Assembly (NCBI GenBank): GCA_023053545.1
Contig: JAKZAN010000005.1
Coordinates: forward strand, 8,308,001 to 8,372,000
Length of the DNA stretch: 64,000 nucleotides
DNA from: Lepidurus packardi
Taxonomy: Eukaryota; Arthropoda; Branchiopoda; Notostraca; Triopsidae
Direction of reading: 5' to 3'
Position numbers and translations under genes: made by a program. Below the pieces are notes generated by a model. The model was given only the letters and a program-made list of their open reading frames with translations, was not told the DNA's origin and searched no databases. Shown here in pieces: positions 5,686 to 61,886 of this stretch. Position 1 is the stretch's first letter; each line of letters starts with the position of its first letter.

Positions 5686-6011
5686 GTCCACGAGCCAGGA
5701 GGATCCGCAAAAAGGATAAGAAACCCGATGAGAAGCGACCTCGAACCGCATTCACAGCCGAGCAATTGGCGCGTCTGAAAACGGAATTCAACGAGAACCG
5801 GTACCTGACCGAAAAACGACGCCAGGATTTGGCCCGCGAACTGCAGTTGCATGAAAATCAGATCAAAATCTGGTTCCAGAACAAGCGCGCTAAAATCAAG
5901 AAAGCCTCGGGGCAAAAGAACCCCCTGGCGTTGCAGCTCATGGCCCAAGGCTTGTATAACCACTCTACCATCCCTCTCCGCGATGACGAAGATATTGACA
6001 GCATGGAATAA
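5686..6011 (+). CDS. en: engrailed-family homeodomain protein, last exon (partial gene)
   Basis: This exon encodes the C-terminal 108 residues of an engrailed-class transcription factor, a nuclear protein that usually represses transcription and acts in segment-polarity and neural patterning. It starts after a pyrimidine-rich acceptor (TTTTCTAG at 5685), and its first two bases complete a Gly codon. Order seen: a basic EH3-like stretch ([14 protein letters not shown]), the homeodomain with the recognition-helix core [13 protein letters not shown] (Gln at homeodomain position 50), then EH5 with [17 protein letters not shown], and an acidic tail ending in DIDSME. The stop is at 6009-6011. The homeodomain and EH5 differ from the partner gene at 15703 by only one residue (Asn versus Thr in LKTEF-x-ENRY). 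Groucho- and PBC-binding motifs must be in exon 1, left of the window. The name en rather than inv is a choice: the other copy can splice in the Arg-Ser typical of inv. Confidence 0.95.
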
Positions 6012-15702: not shown

Positions 15703-18700
15703 TCAACAAGCATTGTTGCTGCTGCTACTGCTGGCCTCCATTTCCATGTCCATTTCGCCCTCTTCGTCGTCGTCCATCGCCATGGTGGAATGGTTGTACA
15801 ATCCTTGAGCCATAAGCTGCAGAGCTAAAGGATTCTTTTGCCCGGATGCTTTCTTGATCTTGGCTCGCTTGTTCTGGAACCATATTTTGATTTGATTTTC
15901 GTGCAACTGCAATTCGCGAGCCAGGTCTTGGCGCCTCTTCTCGGTCAGATACCGATTTTCAGTGAATTCCGTCTTGAGACGGGCCAGCTGCTCAGCTGTG
16001 AAGGCAGTCCGAGGACGTTTTTCGTCCGGCTTCTTCGTCCTTTTCAAACGACGAGTTCGTGGACCTGATCAAAACAAACTTACAATTAGTACTACAATCA
16101 GCAAGGTAGCGAAAAGGTGAGGGTCAGAAGAAGTTTTCAAACGTCTTTTTGAACTCTTGTTTTGCTCTATTTTCGCTTAGACAAACGCCTCATTTCAGTA
16201 GAGTCCACAAAGGAAAGGTAAATGGAACAATGAGCCTGAAACAAACCCTTTAGAAGTAAAAAAAAAACTTAGGGGAAGTTTCCTGGAACACCCAAAGTTT
16301 TATCCTAGGTTTTTATGTGACTCAAATAAGGGCTTAAATCACGACTATACTGGGTAGCACAGGGCTAGAACGGCAGGGTGCAACTCGTAAAACTTATTTC
16401 AACGTGAACTAAAAAAGCACTCATAAAGTAGCTGAAAGTAAACCAGAAAAAAACGACATTCGTTAACTGTCACGTATGCAAGCTTTTTAAAATGACGAGT
16501 CGTGGTTCGGTAAAGTTCACTTTTACCCACTTTATACTGTCTTGTATATTTTTATTTTTTTATTTTTGAGGGAATTTTAGCAGGCTAGTATCCCCGGGGT
16601 TTAAGAGCTTATGCCGCAGTCACGCAAACTGTGTCAAAATGAGTGCCAACCCAAACTCTCAGCCAGTTTCAGACAGACTGATGACTGATATCCCGTAATG
16701 CTAGGTCAGGTTCGGGAAACCTCCCGCTGGGTTAAGGAGCATGTTCAACCCAGGGTGTCCTCTTGTTTCTTAACCGTAAAGACCCAAAGTGTCGTAGAGC
16801 GATGCAGGATTTCGAGACTTTTGATCACTGTAGGACACACACATACACACAAAGCAAAAGAAAGGTTTGCGATCTAGGAACTAGAACTTTTGTAGTAAAC
16901 AGGTCAGTTTTTCCGGAATTTCTGAGCCCTAATTTCTTGTGGTGATTCAAACATGGTCCCAAGCGATGTACCAGCCCTGCAGTGTAGAGCGGCAGCGACC
17001 ACACACGGAAGCTCAGCTCCGGAACCCATGCTGAGTTATGGACGTTAACTAGCATACCAATATGTTTATAGGACTCGGAAAGTCAGTTGGTGTACTGTAC
17101 CTTGGCAATATTCAGACAGCGCATAGCAAAAAGAGTTCGCGGTGACCGTATACATGCCGATCAGACGGTAAAAGTGTCACTTTCGGGGCACCAAGACCAT
17201 TCCGCTCTTCAAGGGGATTTTTGGAGTTTGAATGGGATTAGGGCCGGGTTTAGGACGTGTTGTGGGCCAAAACCTTGGACGTCTCTACTTCCGAAACAGG
17301 GGTGTTTGAAGTCTATTTTAGCCGCACAAAAAGGGACGCCAATTAAAACGAGGACTGTCAGTGTCGTCGGTGTTGGGCTTGAATCAAATCGCCATGACAA
17401 GAGATAACCCCTTCAGAGAGCCCTGTCAATCCAGTGCAAACTCAGCCAAACTCTCGGAATAGTGTGGCCTATACATGAAGTCGTTTCCTGTCAGGTTGTA
17501 CTTGTCATTCTCAAGCGATTCTGACGGGATGGTCTGACAGTATGCTTGGTCTGTTGGCCCATTTGTCAAAAGGCGCTCATTGTGCGAGGATTTCTGTCTT
17601 TGATGCTCTGAAGGTGTTTCAAGGTCCAGCGCCACTTTTTGTTTTATTTCCTGCGTCAAGATTACAAAATGTGCGTCCAATTGGCTTCTCTTTGTTGGGA
17701 AAATGCGAAATAACGGCAACGGAGTGATTGATCTTGAAATCGTTGGCTGCTGCATGGGTCTCGCGAACCACACCCCAATATTATGCGGCTTGGCTATGTG
17801 AAGGTTCATTAGCTTATTCTAAAGCGTTGCAAGCTTTAAATTTTACGTTTTTGTTTTGACGGACAAGTTCACAAGTTTGGCTTTCGGGGGCAATCCAACC
17901 CATGTACCCGCCGTGCTAAAAAGGGACATTCCTTCGAGTTCCGGGAGGTGATTCTGACGCTTTTGACAGATGAAACATCCTGTCGATACATCCCAGGAGG
18001 GCCCTCAAACTATTAGTGTTTCGCTCATAAACGCCGTTTAGTCTTGTAAACGTTTTGCTGGGAGCAGGAAATGATATGGGAAACTGAACGCTGGCATTGG
18101 GAAGGGTTTGCAACTGCTCCTCTGGGAGCTGTGAACCATTCATTTGGCCCTATTGTTGGAGCACGACTACTGCCAACTGAACGCTGGCAATGCAGTTTTT
18201 GACTTGACGTATGAATGCTTAATGAGTTGGAAACATTCGAAAACTTTCTAGAGTCAGTTAGGTTGTGCGCTGCAGTGTATTTTCCCCGAAAAAAAGGGAC
18301 AAATAAGGGAAATTCCTCAAATTCACTGTTGGAAGGTTACTCAGCTCAAAGGCTTTACAAGGGGGCGTGAATTGACTGAGGTTAGAAACGAAGCGAAACG
18401 GCTTTGCTAAAAGACGATGGCATCAAGCTCTCCCACAGTCCAAGCAGTCCGTCGAGTTAGATCAGTGCAATGCTTGAATCTCGACGACGGAACTTTGCTG
18501 TCGATGATAGGCATCGGTTATGCGCGTAAGCTGTCGACAAAGCTTTGATCGACCAGCCGTGAAACGAACCTCCGGCCCGCAAGAATGCGATGTTGGGGTT
18601 TTCTTCTGCGAGGCTGCGAAACTTGATAAAAATCATCTTTACCTATTGACCAAAGCTCGTCAAGAATGTGGAAACCGTGTCAAATCCATTACTCAATTGG

Positions 18701-21700
18701 ACTCAAGCTCGCCCACGGAGAAAGCTTCACAATCGCGCGATTCAAAGCTTTTTTGACAAAAACTTTTAAAAGAATTTATATGTATATAGTCTATATCTGT
18801 ATGTGTGGCTGTACAGTGTATGGCGTGCAAAACAACGGACGCAATAGCACTGGTCCCTTCCCATACACTCGTTACGCGCAACCAAGTAAAAAGTAAAAGC
18901 CAGCTGGTTAATGGCATTAATTTAGAAGGCCGGATCTCGCCTTTTTCCTACTCGTCCTGGTATATCTATGTACTACGTACTGTACATATATATCCGCGGC
19001 AGTAACTACGGGGACTGTTGCGAATTTAATGACCATGACAGACACTGCCAGAGCAAGAGCCAGCTAAAGGTCTTTTCCACCAAAGTCCTCGACCATAACG
19101 TCACCCTCTTCTTGTTCCGTATAGTACAGTAAGAGTAACCATAGCTGGTTGGGCTTTTGGGCATTTCGAGTGGGAATCTTTTCTCAGAATGCTAGCATTT
19201 TTGGGGACTATAATCACGTATATTGCCGAGCGTGAGTTCCAATTGAATAAAATTGCATTGTTGGGTCTTGGAGCAGTCGCTGGCCTTTTGACTTCTTCTT
19301 CTTTGCTTTTTTTCTTATTTTAACTCCTGATAAAAGCTTGAGTAACAGACCACCCAAGTTGTTGCACACAACCAAAAAAAAGATACTTTGCTTGCCATTC
19401 AAATTACCCAGGTTTCTAAGCAAAGCTCCAAACCACAGCGACTTTTTTTTATATACAGATATTTTTTATTTGCCTTTGCTAAAGTTGAGATCAGTTCTGC
19501 TATTTTACCCCGTATATCTTAGAACTCCCCTATTAAGGATTCGGGTCTGGTACATTGTCTTCTGATGCGCTCGGTTATTATCAATTTAAATTCTTGGGGA
19601 ATTTTTTCTTTCGTTTTTGCAAATCCGTAGCCTTGCACAAATGCGACTCAAGCGTTTAAAAGGTTTTTTTTTTTACTGTCATGAAAAATAGTTTCGTCTC
19701 CAACTAACAAGCTGGCAGCGACCGTTTTCCATTCCAGGCCTTTAAGATACGTTAAAACGTCTTAATAGTTGGTTTACAGCTCCTTTAATCGAAATTCTTT
19801 TCGTTTTAACTGTCCGTGTTAGAGCATGCGTATGTGTGTGTGTGGCTGATACACTTCCAAGGACCCTTTTAGTCTCATTAAGGGTTTGAAAGAGAGCGTG
19901 GGAACTTGCTCAGTGCATAAAAAGAGACATTTTGATTACGACGCCCCGTCCATCGTAGCAAACGTTATGTGCACCATGTCCTGCAGGTCTGGGTAGCTGA
20001 AAGCGAGCAGAGCAGTCCTTGATGAAGTTGTTGCCTAGATGTTAGTAGCAAGGTATCGTTTTTGCCTGAGCGGAAAGCCCTAGTTTCCTTCTCTTCCTTT
20101 TTTGTATAGGAGGATTCTCTTTACCCCTCTTAATTTTTAACTTTTTTTTTTTTAACTTTTTTTTCTGGAGTCGAGAATGAACTGGAAATACAGCCATTAA
20201 GCGTAAAGGCCAGCCCTTCGGCCAGCACGGGAGCGTCCCAACTGCAGCCGAAAGGATTACACGACATGACCGTGGAAGACCACACTGTGTGGATATGTGT
20301 GTCCCAAAGTCTCAGAGAAGCTTCCTTATACAGATTCTTTTCTCTGGCTGTCCGCCCTTCTTAGACCTTTAGCGATCTGGGGGGTTTCTGACCCTACGGA
20401 AACGGTGGTCCCCAGAAAGTTGTGTCATAATTACGATGATCACTGCAGGCGACTTGAGTTCACTTTTACACGAAAAGGCTTCTGGTATTCCACACGGCCG
20501 AGACCAACAGGGAAACAACAGGGGGAAAAAAAAGGGTGAAGAAACTAGTCCAACCGCTGATAAACCCTATTGTTAGCGAGGCCGGCATAACAGGGGAGGC
20601 TATTTCATGAGTTTTCAAAGTTCTGACAAGCGTGTACGCCTATCATCAATCCTGACGACGCGTAAGATTTTTGTCTTTTTCGGTACGTACAACAGACCTG
20701 CTGAAGCGTAATCGGATGCTGCAGCACGCCTGGTGCCTGCTTTTATATTACAGTCCTTTTTTTTAAGAAAAATAGTTGTGGGGGTCGACAAGTGAAGCTG
20801 CCCGACTTTACGATGCTGCATAGGTTCTTTTAAAAAAATAGAAGAAAACGCCGCTGGAGCATATGGTCGGGAGGTGAAGTGAAAATTGAATTAAACTGTG
20901 TTTACCAGAAGGGCTTATCCGTGAGTCAGGAGTTAGGGACCGAAAAAGAGCTCGCAGGGAGTTTAAATGGCTATAAATTGTGAATGAGGACAGGCTTGAA
21001 GTGGAAGGAGAGCCATGCAAATGAAGTTGTTGAAGAGCACATAGGGGCCATCCCTTTTCTTCGCATCTTATAATACCAGCCACCAGGGCTTATCAGAAAG
21101 TTGGCGACAGTCGTATCTCGTGGGTGGTCGCGGCACTTTTGTGCTGGTGAGCCATCATCTTTGCTTGCATCATTACAACGTTTTCCAGGGCTGGGTTTCC
21201 TATACGTACTGGTTGCACGAGCTTGGTGTGTGCACAGGCTTAATTTTCCACTTTTTCTTGTCTTCTTTCTTTAATCGCTTTTTGTTGCTGATAGCCTTCC
21301 CCTTTCTCTTCTTTTTTGTAAAAAATAAGAAATAAATAAAATAAAAACACATATTTTTTTTTAGGTTTGGTAACCTCATCTGTCAAGTAAGCGTCTGTGC
21401 CTTGTAAGCTTTCTTATTCCTTATGGATTCTATACATCTCCGTCATCTTTTTTCCACTTCTTCTTCCTCTTCATTTCGACCCAACAAAAAAAACTTGAAA
21501 AAGAGGCTTGTATACCGCAACAAGCGACCGTTTTGGTGGTTTTGGGATTTCAGAAAAATAAAAAGCTCGCGGATTGTTGGGTTTGGGGATATCGTAGCTG
21601 TGAAAGCCAGCATTGGTTAAGCATCTTAACTCTTTTCCCCATTGTGTGTATGTGTGTGTGCGTGCAAGGCAAGGCAAGGGGCCTTCAACTTCACGTCTTC

Positions 21701-24700
21701 ATTAGTAGAGCTCTCTCTCTCTTTCTCGAATTTACAAAAGCTCATGCAGACAGGGGCTTTGGCTTCTTTTCTTATGGAGAGGGTTATGGATGAGGAAGGC
21801 CCGTCAGGCTGCCACGAAGGTAAAAGGGGAATTAGATAGGAAAAAAAGGAGCTGTAGAAAAAAACTGACCACCGTGAGCGATAAGGCCCATGCAGAGATT
21901 TCATGCGGCGCAAGATTGATCTGATGTGCAATGAGTGGGTTGGCATGCAATAACAACCTGTTTGGCCTATTGACTTCTGTCGAGGCAGATTCACGTTGCT
22001 TTTCTGTGTTTGCTAAATCTTGTCGCACAGACAGGTAAAGGGAAGACTGTTGGAAGTAAAGGGAAGGGTATGTGTGCAGTAAAGGGCAAGGGTAGTGAGG
22101 TAAAGGGATGCTTACGTGGTAAAGGGCAGCAAGATGGTAAAGGGAAGGTTACGTGTGCTATTGGTAGCGAAGGGATGGCATGGGTATCATGTGTTTGCTG
22201 TGGCTACATCTTGTTTCGGACTGCCAAGAACTAACTACAAAGCCAATAGCATCCGAAAGTAACGTAACAACTCTATAGAAAAGACAATAGCGTTTGAGAT
22301 TGTGGCAGAAAGGTGAGAAGAACACTGCAAAAGGCCCGAGTCATGAAGGTTACGTCATATTTAAAAAAAAAAATAAAAAAGAATTGAGAAACGGCCAGTC
22401 TAGCAGTAGGTCAACAATTGAGAGCCACAATTTTCACTTCTTGCATATGGATTGGGAAGGATATGTATTTATGCAACAGCAACTATGCTTATTCATTGTG
22501 TGTGCACGTTGGCTGCTTAAACAAGTGCCTTCTAGGAAACCAGGTATTTTTTATTTTATTTTTTAAGGCGCAACTGACGTCAGAGGTTAAATAGGCATTG
22601 TTGAATTCGATACATCCTTTAAGGGGGAGCATTGGCTTGCTCTGTTGGACCCAAGCTAGGTTTTTGTCACAAAAGGTTGGGAAACCGGATCCCTTGAAAA
22701 CCGAACTAAAGTTGTCCCCTTTTGGCACCTGGCTACAAAGTTTTTAGCTCGCACGCTAGGCATAAGCAACTTTTTGGCCTTATGGTTCATAAAGGCATCT
22801 CTTTGCTGAAGGCAGGTTTGACTTACAAAGAGTGTCTGGAACCACCCAGGCCGCCAGCGTTGGGTGGTCGAAGCCTCTTGGCCCGTAAATCTCGGCGGGC
22901 TTTTTGTGGGCGCGTGAGCCGTGAGTCAAAAACATAAGAGTCTCGGCCATCCCATCCCGCTCCTTCTTTTCTGCGGGAGTTTCAAACCACATACACAAAA
23001 AACAAGAGTTCTTGCTGGGACCCAAAAGGGGGTACCCACAACAACAAAAAAAGGAGGAGAGACATCCCCCGTGTAGTAGCAATGGAATAAAGACTTGGTT
23101 TAACTGTCACCTCGGCTCTTTTTTTTTCGATTTGTTTTGCCATTTAATTAAGTATTTGCTCGAAAGTAGTAATACGAGCGCCCTTATCGCCCGTGACCAG
23201 ACCCAGAAGGGCAGGGACATTGTTTGGTCAGCCAAGCGACCCGTAGCTATCATCGATGACGTCTACTTTTGGCAGTGAACCGTGTAAACTGGTGCAGTAT
23301 TTCATGGCAAAGGACGAAGAATGTTTCTCTCTAGGGCGATATGGCGTTCTCTAAACCCACTCCATGTGGCTGCGAGACTTAAAGCGCTTTCTGGGGTGGG
23401 GGTTGCCACTCGTGTTATATATTGTTACGGACAGGCCCGTGTCGTTATCGACCTAATTCCCTCCCCCGGAGTAAGTTCCTTTTTCTCTCAATGTAATGAT
23501 GGGATCGCTCCTCGTTTCTGCTCACCCAGCACAACAACTAATTCGTGTATAGTTGTAATAAGTGCTGTGGGTTACCAACCACATGCTCCCAGTGCCTTTT
23601 GCACTGGGACCCACATATTGATCCTAGGGTAAAATCTTTTACGTCTCTATAACCACCTTTGCCAACTAAAGGTATAGAGCACACCGCACAGCACGAGCAA
23701 GAAAAGGTCCTTTACAATTTTTTTTTATTTTTTTTTAAAGGAGCCGCGGATCGAAGAGAGGGACTGTTCCTTGCTTGACATTGAACATAACCAACAGTGA
23801 CAGTTAAATGAGTCATATTAGATATGATGAGCTAACAACTCTTAACGAGGCAAACAGCTTTGGCATTTGGCATTCACAAGTTGAAACGCGTTTTGAACTC
23901 TTTCCCTGTATTTCTCTATATGCATTCTTGATATTACTAACTTGTTTCTTGAAGGCAAGCAAAAAGTGACGGATGACTGTTGAAGGTTTCGTGCGACGAG
24001 CAATTTGCAGCAATCCAGACTGTTTAAAGGTTACTTATTATGGACACTGTTTTCAGCGTTTGCTGTCTCAATGGAGCAATTGTGGAGGTGTACCGTAAGA
24101 AGTCGGGGCGTAGACAGACATGCAAGCTATTTTTTCCTTGTTTTCGTTTTCGCAGAACGAGCCAAAAGCGCCAAGTTATCGAGTTGCCATACCAACACCT
24201 AACAGACGCGTTTCGGGAAGTATCCTAGCGTGAGGCTCTATTATTAGAGACGGCCTAGGAAAAAGACGTGTTTTTATTGTTGCCTGACCTGCCTTTGCAT
24301 TCATGGACATGGCATAGGTATTACTCTTGTGGGTAGGGCTAATTAAAAGCCATAAAGCAATGTAGGTCGAGTAGTTTGGGAGCTCCTGATGGTTGACGGT
24401 TTGCAATTGAGATAACTCGGTAGCCAAGCCAATAATAAATATAAAAAATAAGTAAATAGATAAAATAAAATGATGCTCCCCTGTGATAAATCAAGCAACT
24501 TTTTACAAGTCAAGCCTTGCGCTGGGAAATATCAAACGACCGTTTTATGCATTTTACGCAGCCATAATAAGAGTGGCATGTGGCTCGCTATGCCGATAAG
24601 CATAAATTTCGACTTGTCAAGTGGTCTAACCTTAAAAATGTGGCCTGGAGGAAACGAACAATCGTGTCTTCAGGAGTCCGGCCCATTAAGTGAATGGGAC

Positions 24701-26379
24701 TCGCGGTGATACATTGGCTTAGAGGAGCTCTTGCTGGCTTTCTGGCTGTTTTAAGGTGGCCACAAATCCCCCGAAGATGAAATAAGTCTTCTCTCTATGC
24801 AAAATCGTTCCATATTTTCCCTCTACAAGCAATATGAGTATTTTCTGTTTCTTTTACCCGGTTATACAATTTATGACCTGTTGGTTTTAACTGCTTCTTG
24901 AACTTTTATTGAACTTAGAGACATTCAACCTATAAATGTCCTGAGCTGCTTGAGTTTCAAGATAGTGTGGGTGCAAACATTGCAACAGTCCTAAGTGTTT
25001 GTGTGTGGATGGTGTTCGAAGTTAGTTTCGCTTCATTGGTAAGAAACTAATCATTAGAGGGCAAAAGCTGTTCCGCAGTGTTTAGAATTACCTTCCCAAA
25101 TGACCAAAGTAATGACCAAAATGACAGTCTTTTACTTCCGCTTTTCAGCTTGACAAATTGCTAGTTTCTATAGTGTGCCATTACGTGGATTGCTTCAGGC
25201 TCAGCATGATTCATTTTGAGACATATGGAGCAAAACAAGGGCAAAAAGACTTAAATAAACAAAGAATAAATAAAAATGTTTTAAACTAAAATAAAAACAT
25301 GGGGAACGTGGGGATTGAAATCATGGTAAACGAAAATTGTACTCACTCCTACCTGAAGAAGGCCTGTCCGAGTACCTAGTGCAGAAGATCCAGGCCGGCC
25401 ATTTATTCATTTCTAGTAATTTAGCTGGATCTGAGGGCAATTCTTCCACCGCTTGCGAGTCTGAATCGGTAACGGCTCCAGTGGACTCGGTTTTGCTCAA
25501 ATCCACCGGCGCTTGCTGTTCTTCTTGAAGGGTCTTGGTACTCTTTGGGGTTCCCTTCGGTGAGTCGGAGTCTGTAGGGTGCGCGTTCTCGGCAGCATGA
25601 TTACTGTCTTGTAGTCTTAGATTGACCGCTTCGAAGGCTTTGTTGTGGTCCAAATGAGGGATTTTGGAAGCCGATGACTCGGGTTTGGGGAATTCAGCTA
25701 AACGCTTGAGACTCGAGATTGCATTCTCGGTGATGTTGGCGTGATGATGCTTCGTCTTGGTGTTTGATTGAGTCTTGCTGCTGGATTTTGAGTGGGTCGA
25801 GGGTTGCGTGATTCGTCTAGGAGTATCCGCCGTGGCGGTCGGTTTGCTGATGGATACTGGCGCGGGACCAAAGTCCGGCTTGAGGATGTTCTCGACGGAA
25901 AAGGAGAGGGATCGAGTCGCTGGATTAGCCGGTCCTGTGGGCACAGGTTTGGCTGGTAAGTGTAATGGAGGTAGCAAAGGAGGTTGCGGGAGCCGATTGA
26001 GGATCGCACTGTTGGCTAAGGAGTTGTGCAGAGCATGATGTGGCATGCCGGGGAGCAACTGCGGCAGCGGCACGCCGAAGCCGTACGACGCCGGTAACGT
26101 GCCGTGATGAACGTTGCTGGCAGCCGCAGCCGCTGCGGCGGCAGCGGACAAGAAGCTCGGACTCACCCCGAGTCCCATGAATCCGAGTGTACTCATGTGT
26201 TGCAACGCGGTGTGGTAAGGAAAACACGGTGACAATAAAGGGGACGTAGAGAATCGGCCAGAAGCCGAAGATGGGCTATCAGGCGCGGGTCCAGGAGTTG
26301 AAGCACTGCGAGGACTTGTGCCTCGGTAACACTCGGGAGGCAAATGCAATGGGGTCATGTCCATCGTAGTAGAACACAT
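15703..26379 (-). CDS. inv: invected-like engrailed-family homeodomain protein, complete, two coding exons
   Basis: Exons on the - strand are 26379-25347 and 16064-15703, giving 464 aa with the outer donor or 462 aa with the inner donor at 25353. Motifs in order: a Pro/Ser-rich N terminus, a run of nine Ala (about 79-87), EH1 [15 protein letters not shown] (157-171, Groucho recruitment), PVDLS (291-295, CtBP-type), EH2 [17 protein letters not shown] (327-343, contact with PBC/Extradenticle), optional Arg-Ser, EH3 [11 protein letters not shown], homeodomain (about 358-417, [13 protein letters not shown]), EH5 [17 protein letters not shown], and an acidic tail with five Ser before NNAC. It should act as a nuclear repressor in segment polarity and neural patterning. 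The start is the first ATG in frame (26379); a second ATG at 26364 has the better context (ACG-ATG-G). The acceptor is GATCAG at 16065. The gene is convergent with en and carries regulatory-like words throughout its intron. Confidence 0.93.
19348..19356 (+). promoter_or_regulatory. exact Gli/Ci-type site in inv intron
   Basis: GACCACCCA within CAGACCACCCAAGTTG. The extended context is shared with 11159 (reverse), 43098 and 43659. Confidence 0.5.
21121..21129 (-). promoter_or_regulatory. exact Gli/Ci-type site in inv intron
   Basis: TGGGTGGTC on the + strand. The flanks (CTCG before, GCGG after) do not match the other copies, so only the core is shared. Confidence 0.4.
22035..22144. repeat. 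six GTAAAGGG words in near-regular phase
   Basis: GTAAAGGG starts at 22035, 22056, 22079, 22100, 22119 and 22137, with steps of 21, 23, 21, 19 and 18 bp. The spacers differ in sequence, so this is more like a homotypic site cluster than a clean minisatellite. Steps of about 20 bp put the words on roughly the same face of the helix. It sits inside the inv intron. No factor is assigned. Confidence 0.7.
22840..22869. promoter_or_regulatory. inverted pair of Gli/Ci-type sites in inv intron
   Basis: AACCACCCA (22840-22848, one mismatch) faces the exact TGGGTGGTC (22861-22869) with a 12-bp gap rich in CpG. Such close inverted pairing occurs only here in the window. Confidence 0.5.
25341..25354 (-). 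promoter_or_regulatory. inv: tandem 5' splice donors of inv exon 1 (plus or minus Arg-Ser)
   Basis: On the - strand the exon end reads TCAG-GTAGGA-GTGAGT. The inner donor G/GTAGGA (intron from 25352) joins to the acceptor exon as Ser-Gly-Pro-Arg. The outer donor A/GTGAGT (intron from 25346) joins as Ser-Gly-Arg-Ser-Pro-Arg. Both keep the frame because they lie 6 nt apart. The outer donor is by far the better consensus match, so the Arg-Ser form is probably the main one. Confidence 0.8.
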
Positions 26380-59572: not shown

Positions 59573-61372
59573 TCATGCAATTAGCCATCCAGGTATCGAG
59601 CATCGTAATTTGTCTTTAATTATCTTTTGTTTGCTTAAAGCCCTTTCAGCTGAGCAACTGGCGACCGCTAAGCTCACCAAAATCTTGTATAGGCTTGTTA
59701 AATTCGGGAATCTAGACAACTGGTTAACCAACCGAAATGGTTTTATGAAGCCTTTCTTGACCCACAATCCAACGAATGCATCTTGTTTCAGTTCTGAGAC
59801 AGCGCTGCCTTCATTGGACAGAGTTTCTTCATCGACGTTGACTTCACCTTTCTCAGCTTCAACTTCACTTTCCGAGTCCTCAATACCATCCGACTTCGTA
59901 GGTTCCTTAAAATTAGTTTGCCTTCCCCGACAAACCGACGTGACTGGAAGTCCCCGCTTCTTCCGTTTCTTTGGCAGAAGGTCGTCAACAGAGATCTCTT
60001 CTTGAATAGATTGATACACGTTACGAAAGTCGCGATACTCGATCGCAACATCAACCGGGTTCAGTCCATAATACTCGCATAATGTTGCGACGCAGGTTTG
60101 AGTGACTAGGTTTTCCTTCATAAGACTCTCGTGCGTTAGGAGACTAGCTTCACGGATTATCTTCGTGTTTTCATCTGAGAATCTGTCTTCAATCTGGACT
60201 AGAAGCAGGTCGGTAGCTCGAAAGAAGACTACGGTTTTCAACTTGCGAAAGGGATCTTCAATCACTTCATCCAAGCCAAGCTCGTCGAAAAACTTCTTCA
60301 CCCTCGGAATTCGCTTGCTCTGAGGAAACTCAATACGGTGCCTTTCTGCAAACGACCGTATTTCAAGTTTAATCTTTTCCCACTCCTCATCGCATCGCAT
60401 ACTTCTCAACTTATGGATTGCACCGTCAATAACCCCAGTCATTGATCCTAGAGGAAAATTTGCATCACGCTAAATGTAATGGGTCATAAGGAAAGACTAA
60501 CACTTATAGAAATTAGCTATTGTACTGTAATGATATTATGTAATGTACCATGACTAGCAGTCAGGGTGACAGGGTTGCCAAAGAAATTTCGAAGGCTCTT
60601 TGATGGTTGAGTTTCAGTAGTAGTTGCTTCTTGGCTACTCAAAGAATTACAAAGAAAATAATTAATGCACAGGGCAGACAAAATTATAGCTATTACTCTG
60701 ACCTATAATGGCTATAGGATACCTAACACTTTTATGGTCAAACAGGAAACATATCAGGTCATCGCACGAAATTCGTTCGATATTTAACAATATCTTTGTG
60801 TCTCTAATGATATGAGAAGTAAAATTTAATAAGTATCGAAGAGACTTTTTTAAATATTGCATGATAAATTTGTAAATAGGAGTCGAGTTTTTGTTTCTAA
60901 AATAATTCAGAAACTGGGCTTCGAAGTGTACTGTTTTTTTAAATGAATTTAAAAGAAAATACCATTGCAATCCGACTACTAGTTTTTGATGTATGACTTG
61001 ATAATTTTTTCCTGCTGAAAGCCTTCTCTTTAAAGCATACTAGCCATAGGTATCCCGTAGCCTTAAAAGGCATATTTTTTGAGTCAATATTGGGTAGTAA
61101 CAAATTATAATTATTAAATTAAATCAAATTAAATTAAGTAACTATTTGGTAATAACAAAAAATAAGTGGAGAATTAATTAAGGTAAATAGATACTTTACC
61201 TTATTCCAGAAGGACTTGGACGTTTACCCTTCAGAATTCTTCTCACTTCGATGTTGTTGAGGCACTCATATTTGTGCTTTTCTCGAAGGTGAGAAAGCCA
61301 TTTGTCTTTCCGCACGCTAAAACCACATCCAGTCCCTTGACATCGATAATATTCCGAATGTCCTTTAGGCAT
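59573..61372 (-). CDS. hAT-transposase-derived protein, spliced
   Basis: Exons on the - strand are 61372-61200 (possibly starting further upstream, open to about 61554), 60634-60549 and 60447-59573. The splice phases agree (AG plus C; G plus GA) and the sum from the ATG at 61372 is 1134 nt, or 377 aa. An N-terminal zinc-finger-like motif C-x4-C-x11-H-x4-H (RCQGTGCGFSVRKDKWLSHL and on) lies in exon 1. Exon 3 ends with the hAT dimerisation signature: FPNLTSLYKILVSLAVASCS, then AERALSKQKIIKDKLRCS. A basic patch (LLPKKRKKR) and an acidic linker lie between. The frames are intact, but the protein is short for a hAT transposase and the catalytic Asp/Asp/Glu core cannot be placed, so it is either a deleted element or a host gene derived from one. 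The stop comes soon after the dimerisation motif. Confidence 0.75.
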
Positions 61373-61886
61373 ATTAATAGCGTTACAGGGCTCGTAAAGA
61401 GAATTGAGTTTGTAGTGTCGACCGTCCCAAGAAGTGAGTTTTCTGCCTTGTGACTTCACGGTTCGCTCGCTTGAGTGCGACGCCCTACTGTTTACTTTTG
61501 CAGTGGCGGCATTTTGAAGAGCGGCAAATGGGTTAAAAGCCCATATGAGTTTAGCTATGGGATGTCAGCCCAATTTTTTTCCTTAAAACTGCTGTAAGCT
61601 TTTTATTGCAACAATTTGGACCATAGGGTGCAATACAGCCTCGACACCTCGCAACATACAGCAACTGTAAATATGGCTTCATCGGACTACGTTCGAACTT
61701 TGTATGCAAAGAAAAACGCAACTATTATTTTTAAAAAAAACACTTGTATTTATTTAAGATTTCAATATGGAATTTTGCTTGGGGGACATGTGAGTTTCAA
61801 GGGGGGGTGGGCATGGGAGTTTCGGGGGGGGGGGGGGGGGTCATATGCATTTTTTTGAAAATTTGCTTGTTGGCTATGCTCACAAG
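61373..61886. other. 5' flank of the hAT-derived gene, then unassigned repeat-like DNA
   Basis: The - strand frame of the first hAT exon stays open to about 61564, and an acceptor-like CATCCCATAG ends at 61555, so a further upstream exon is possible. Beyond it 61740-61840 is AT-rich DNA leading into a G run (about 61827-61840). The words AATATGSAAT and AAATTTCGGGG or GTTTCGGGG recur here and inside the adjacent MITE. Confidence 0.45.

Follow-up and report, generated by a model that had tools for sequence, protein, structure and literature searches.

Adjacent splice donors as a possible Arg-Ser switch in an engrailed-family gene whose convergent paralog carries a candidate Arg-Ser microexon

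In this work, we present a gene of the engrailed family whose exon 1 ends with two GT donors placed 6 nt apart. It probably belongs to a convergent en/inv pair as the member of en type. We propose, with a probability of about 0.58 as judged from the genomic sequence, that the two donors would form a tandem 5' splice site switch deciding on the presence of an Arg-Ser dipeptide. Both paralogs of the pair can, by prediction, encode Arg-Ser and would do so by different routes, one through a candidate mini-exon and the other through the choice between adjacent donors.

The RS dipeptide serves to distinguish invected from engrailed in insects, and the 6 bp exon of Drosophila invected is the one which codes for it. 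To our knowledge insect En is devoid of RS, and Peel et al. are said to have found in 2006 that RS is coded by only one paralogue per hexapod species. Passages of published papers describe the 6 bp exon of Drosophila invected (PMC7392893), the RS-motif carried by Inv proteins (PMC5648497) and the convergent order of en and inv in hexapods (PMC3199776).

Materials and methods

The window, i.e. the whole stretch of DNA analysed (64,000 nt), corresponds to positions 8308001-8372000 of contig C4 in an assembly of 108.6 Mb and 344 contigs. Two frames on its minus strand were recognised by eye, one similar to the C-terminal portion of a hAT-type transposase (59573-60469) and one to a BED zinc finger (61196-61564).

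The donor model of the genome was built on two small sets, 27 introns of myosin-head genes and 37 donors of homeobox genes, 64 in all. The 146 myosin matches were used only within 20 chosen regions of contigs C1-C6. This excluded the small contigs, the majority of the near-duplicate and subtelomeric copies and a number of other partial genes, and the 44 adjacent pairs obtained gave 27 unique junctions, 1 ambiguous and 16 unsolved. Among 101 homeodomain matches, 38 ending at profile positions 44-48 were taken (four others ending there were omitted) and one of them, L057, was removed by hand due to its poor fit. Exon-side frequencies come from the myosin introns alone, because homeobox donors follow a fixed codon. 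The matrix treats positions as independent and the U1 pairing energies were computed without pseudouridine; the U1 5' end, ATACTTACCTG, was read in two of three U1 loci, the third not having been read in the right orientation. One of the myosin heavy chain loci (L079, C2:11535026-11536248, plus strand) has three exons in a row which all match profile positions 376/378-435 and are likely mutually exclusive alternatives.

Kinase domains were dropped as a source of introns, with 127 of the 136 listed matches (128 of 988 candidates scored) located outside C1-C6, mostly with in-frame TAA or TAG. These outside matches lie mostly on contigs C73-C337, and their in-frame stops are commonly TAG/TAA and hardly ever TGA, which fits a ciliate reading TAA/TAG as Gln; judging by this pattern, the contigs outside C1-C6, mostly C73-C337, are probably ciliate sequence within the assembly. 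Elsewhere in the assembly, Cu/Zn superoxide-dismutase-like exons precede, on the same strand, two of about ten vitellogenin-type exon clusters (SOD/vitellogenin N-terminal exon places C1:706141-714694, plus strand, and C4:11903280-11908701, minus strand), which suggests SOD-vitellogenin fusion genes at two places. This arrangement fits a branchiopod, as such fusions are known in that group, and the DNA comes from an arthropod that is probably a branchiopod crustacean.

Exon scans covered exons of 6 nt. For chance calculations base frequencies of 0.29 (A, T) and 0.21 (C, G) were applied.

Results

Two in-frame donors at the end of exon 1

The right gene of the pair lies on the minus strand and is composed of the following elements (window coordinates):

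25353..26379, minus strand: coding part of exon 1, from ATG at 26379 to the inner donor, defined by open frame and splice geometry
25347..25352, minus strand: optional hexamer GTAGGA, intronic with the inner donor and exonic with the outer one (g/GT AGG A/gt, Gly-Arg-Ser)
25351..25352, minus strand: GT of the inner donor, CAG/GTAGGA, U1 pairing -10.7 kcal/mol, matrix score 3.57
25345..25346, minus strand: GT of the outer donor, GGA/GTGAGT, U1 pairing -6.2 kcal/mol, matrix score -1.78
16065..25346, minus strand: intron 1 in its outer form, GT...TTGATCAG, without a candidate for a 6-nt RS-coding microexon
15703..16064, minus strand: exon 2, GTCCACGA..., with homeodomain (PF00046) and engrailed C-terminal signature (PF10525), stop at 15703

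Exon 1 contains the boxes EH1 and EH2. From 25357 downwards the minus strand reads TTCAG GTAGGA GTGAGT, so the last exon base is 25353 with the inner donor and the intron begins at 25346 with the outer one; this confirms the exon end TCAG-GTAGGA-GTGAGT with GT donors at 25352 and 25346, as given in a preliminary description of this DNA. Each of the two GTs, 6 nt apart, is in frame with the acceptor at 16064, and from ATG 26379 to stop 15703 both joins remain open, giving 462 aa with SGPR or 464 aa with SGRSPR. The expectation that the outer donor adds Arg-Ser at the invected position is borne out by the latter join. A separate Arg-Ser microexon in the gene's own intron, which the preliminary description had named as one of two observations to be set against its proposal, did not appear: AG-N6-GT coding Gly-Arg-Ser occurs 0 times in the 9,282 nt of intron 1, the mean of 200 first-order Markov sequences being 0.155.

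Strength of the two donors

Judged by the donor model of this genome, the inner donor is average. The outer one ranks low on the matrix and in the middle of the range for U1 pairing. The matrix score of the inner site is above 14 of the 27 myosin donors and 21 of all 64, and is equalled or beaten by 1.7% of the GTs in the window; its U1 pairing is stronger than that of 25/27 myosin and 30/37 homeobox donors. The outer site scores above 2/27 myosin donors and 2/64 of all donors, with 29% of window GTs equal or better, and its pairing with U1 (-7.7 kcal/mol with longer flanks) exceeds that of 17/27 myosin donors and only 6/37 homeobox donors, which speaks against a switch. The difference in favour of the inner site is about 5 bits by matrix and 4.5 kcal/mol by U1 pairing, or 3.1 kcal/mol with longer flanks.

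On the intron side the order is reversed. The intron part of the matrix gives 1.20 to the outer and 0.43 to the inner donor, and their six intron bases pair with U1 at -5.2 and -4.0 kcal/mol, respectively. The inner donor is itself imperfect, which also weighs against a switch: its +4 G is rare (2 of 64 donors), and when only the intron side is compared with the 37 homeobox donors it falls below all of them, the outer donor being above 6. The better intron side of the outer donor would suit a gene in which that donor alone is used, with RS constitutive by means of an extended exon 1 and GTAGGA serving merely as part of the codons GGT AGG; the A at -1 of the outer site is, moreover, common among donors of this genome (7/27 myosin, 5/37 homeobox). 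We consider such a gene quite unlikely, as the whole-site advantage of the inner donor in both measures stands against it, and constitutive use of the outer donor should have weakened the inner one.

Masking of one donor by an RNA hairpin was rejected as an explanation, with no clear difference between the sites in predicted folding: within 121 nt the mean unpaired value is 0.23 for the inner and 0.34 for the outer site, and such similar pairing of both lends the proposed alternation no support. Taking the scores together, the inner site is likely the major one and the outer weak but possible. Formation of two isoforms from one site, as suggested in the preliminary description, is plausible on these predictions, given that the inner donor is unexceptional among donors of this genome.

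A candidate Arg-Ser microexon in the left paralog

The convergent left gene, on the plus strand, consists of:

C4:8303469-8304819, to the left of the window: exon 1, with donor CAG/GTAAAA
2739..2744, plus strand: candidate RS microexon GACGAA, in the context tcttttattcccgtttctttag/GACGAA/gtaagt, predicted from sequence (g/GA CGA A/gt, Gly-Arg-Ser)
5686..6011, plus strand: exon 2, GTCCACGAGCC..., with homeodomain and C-terminal signature, stop at 6009-6011

When its first intron (8,866 nt) was subjected to the same Gly-Arg-Ser scan, the single candidate found was 2739-2744, preceded by a strong pyrimidine tract and followed by the donor GTAAGT. This candidate, absent from the preliminary description, would place Gly-Arg-Ser at the same position and in the same phase as in the outer form of the right gene. 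The predicted protein has 560 aa and SGRSPR with the microexon included, and 558 aa and SGPR with it skipped. In 1,500 Markov versions of this intron a hexamer coding RS and flanked by AG and GT appeared 0.099 times per intron, and in no case was it combined with both a pyrimidine tract of at least 16/20 and GTRAGN. In the window together with L009-L012, both strands (208,000 strand-bases), a strong pyrimidine tract followed by C/TAG-N6-GTRAGT, whatever the six bases, is present only at the left microexon, and AG-[G N Arg A]-GT was found five times, with only the right-gene site and the left microexon continuing as GTRAGN.

The hallmark of invected, a 6-nt phase 1 RS microexon in intron 1, is on sequence grounds thus found in the left gene and missing from the right one. 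The left paralog is probably the better inv candidate by the insect RS criterion, because of its canonical 6-nt RS microexon, and by the same criterion the right gene is the candidate for en. The name inv, previously given to the right gene, is therefore left without support, as the microexon sits in its convergent paralog and the right gene may be of en-type; nor can it be upheld that the pair makes its RS without a microexon.

The pair and its age

Both proteins score above the cut-off for PF00046 and PF10525, and in both genes the EH2 box WPAW(V/I)(Y/F)... is directly followed by an intron. Throughout the genome the EH2-to-homeodomain query gave 74 matches, with the EH2 part covered only at the places of the left and right gene. 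The two are linked convergent paralogs as in an en/inv-type cassette, left on the plus and right on the minus strand, with stops at 6011 and 15703, 9.7 kb apart. Drosophila en/inv are flanked by E(Pc) and toutatis. Linkage of E(Pc) to the pair was not found, the one EPL1 match in the genome being on contig C1, and the same applies to toutatis, represented in the search by its DDT domain, whose 4 matches are on C46 (two), C2 and C4, there at 3.77 Mb with the pair at 8.3 Mb; orthology could not be assigned through synteny, E(Pc) and the DDT-domain genes being unlinked to the pair. Contig C46 has DDT matches at 32 kb (plus) and 263 kb (minus) and myosin matches at 83 kb (plus) and 222 kb (minus), with equal or near-equal scores and opposite orientation, which suggests a large inverted duplication or an assembly palindrome. 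No relatives were confirmed in viral and prokaryote collections.

The homeobox stretches of the two paralogs share 82 of 83 residues, with 45 of the 82 identical residues written with different codons; four-fold sites differ in 19 of 30 cases, and identity extends over 17 nt at the longest. By this measure the paralogs are old, and recent copying accordingly fails to explain RS in both: gene conversion of recent date is ruled out by the codon divergence. The hexamers themselves, GACGAA and GTAGGA, differ in 3/6 bases, all changes being synonymous (GRS), which is true of 3 in 540 hexamers that distant.

Is the Arg-Ser hexamer a coincidence?

The strength of the inner donor, higher by matrix and by U1 pairing alike, invites a reading in which it alone is used, the protein has the SGPR of a typical Engrailed, and the presence of RS codons before GTGAGT is an accident of the intron. 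It is in keeping with this reading that the sister already has a candidate RS microexon, making the right gene an RS-less en, and that a second GT 6 nt further on is seen in 2/37 homeobox donors (but GTRAG at that place in 0/37); should the right gene be orthologous to en, exclusive use of the inner donor with RS present by chance is possible, which counts against a switch. The probability of such an accident can be calculated because the place of RS was fixed beforehand by the family motif. An Arg codon, A, and a GT scoring at least as high as the outer donor are expected at the exact spot with P = 3.5e-4, a lax threshold which 29% of window GTs pass, and with P = 8e-6 when GTRAGT is demanded. 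In view of these figures we regard use of the inner donor alone as unlikely.

Discussion

We infer that both donors are used and that the left microexon is included, that RS has a function in the right gene and is coded homologously in the two paralogs, and likewise the orthology of each gene of the pair. In the proposed tandem-donor switch, U1 bound to CAG/GTAGGA would lead to SGPR and U1 bound to GGA/GTGAGT to SGRSPR, and the choice would be exclusive because the two U1 footprints overlap. The inner site would gain from its better U1 match and exon side, and the outer from its better intron side at +3 to +6, the part of the donor later read by U6. A mixed output with the inner form as the major one would be expected, and the Arg-Ser of the outer form would be the same trait as the product of the sister's microexon and of insect Invected.

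The nearest precedent is the tandem donor of FGFR, also with a distance of 6 nt, which is responsible for the VT insertion. A passage on this system (PMC2423196) cites the choice between the donors as shown to be determinable by U6 fit; it differs from ours in concerning an unrelated gene and other residues, and in the right gene donor use is a prediction only. Tandem donors of the delta-6 type are, by the text of another paper, present in 142 of 140,975 human CDS introns, with selection overall against such events (PMC2279118). As in those cases, a close donor pair would alter the protein by two residues; unlike them, the residues of the right gene match a family motif and are independently codable by the sister. 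Drosophila homothorax, a homeobox gene as well, is described in part of PMC7392893 as making a micro-exon (micro-Ex8) and a longer form of one exon by 5' splice site choice, which resembles the short and long forms proposed here, but there the forms have 3 bp and 48 bp, the exon is internal and the choice was experimentally shown. Among open-licence papers we found no report in which RS is coded through a tandem donor in the engrailed family, and none of a branchiopod RS microexon.

With hexapod Invected the pair has in common the same dipeptide between EH2 and the homeodomain, and the left paralog also the form of a 6-nt exon. In the right gene, unlike in Drosophila invected, the six bases directly adjoin exon 1, to which donor choice would add them; and where hexapods reportedly have one RS paralogue per species, here both genes can code RS.

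The preliminary description had considered exon extension as the ancestral state of the microexon or, alternatively, fusion of a microexon to exon 1, and both proposals now apply to a pair with one form in each member. The right gene may once have had a separate RS microexon, fused to exon 1 after loss of the preceding intron, with recombination with a partly spliced copy as a possible route, since exon 1 joined to the microexon in such a copy gives just this layout. The split form is kept in the sister gene, but without outgroups this course is indistinguishable from the reverse one, intron gain in the sister, and we hold it to be somewhat unlikely; it is compatible with the tandem-donor switch as the present use of the site. 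We put forward equally tentatively, and on the unlikely side, that Arg-Ser is older than the en/inv duplication and was situated on an exon end with tandem donors, from which inv developed its microexon, while en kept the switch here and lost RS in insects.

Conclusions

The pair would present the same two residues made by a microexon in one member and by donor choice in the other, and the birth of a 6-nt exon is testable across the exon 1 ends of crustaceans. If Arg-Ser predates the duplication in the manner just put forward, this genome would show together the form from which a microexon was born and the microexon that resulted. If the species is a branchiopod, the RS microexon is older than the branchiopod/insect split; were it a hexapod, the microexon would come as no surprise and the tandem donor of its partner would be the sole unusual feature. 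Should both paralogs be able to encode RS in an arthropod that is not an insect, the dipeptide is no diagnostic marker beyond the insects and may have arisen before en and inv separated.
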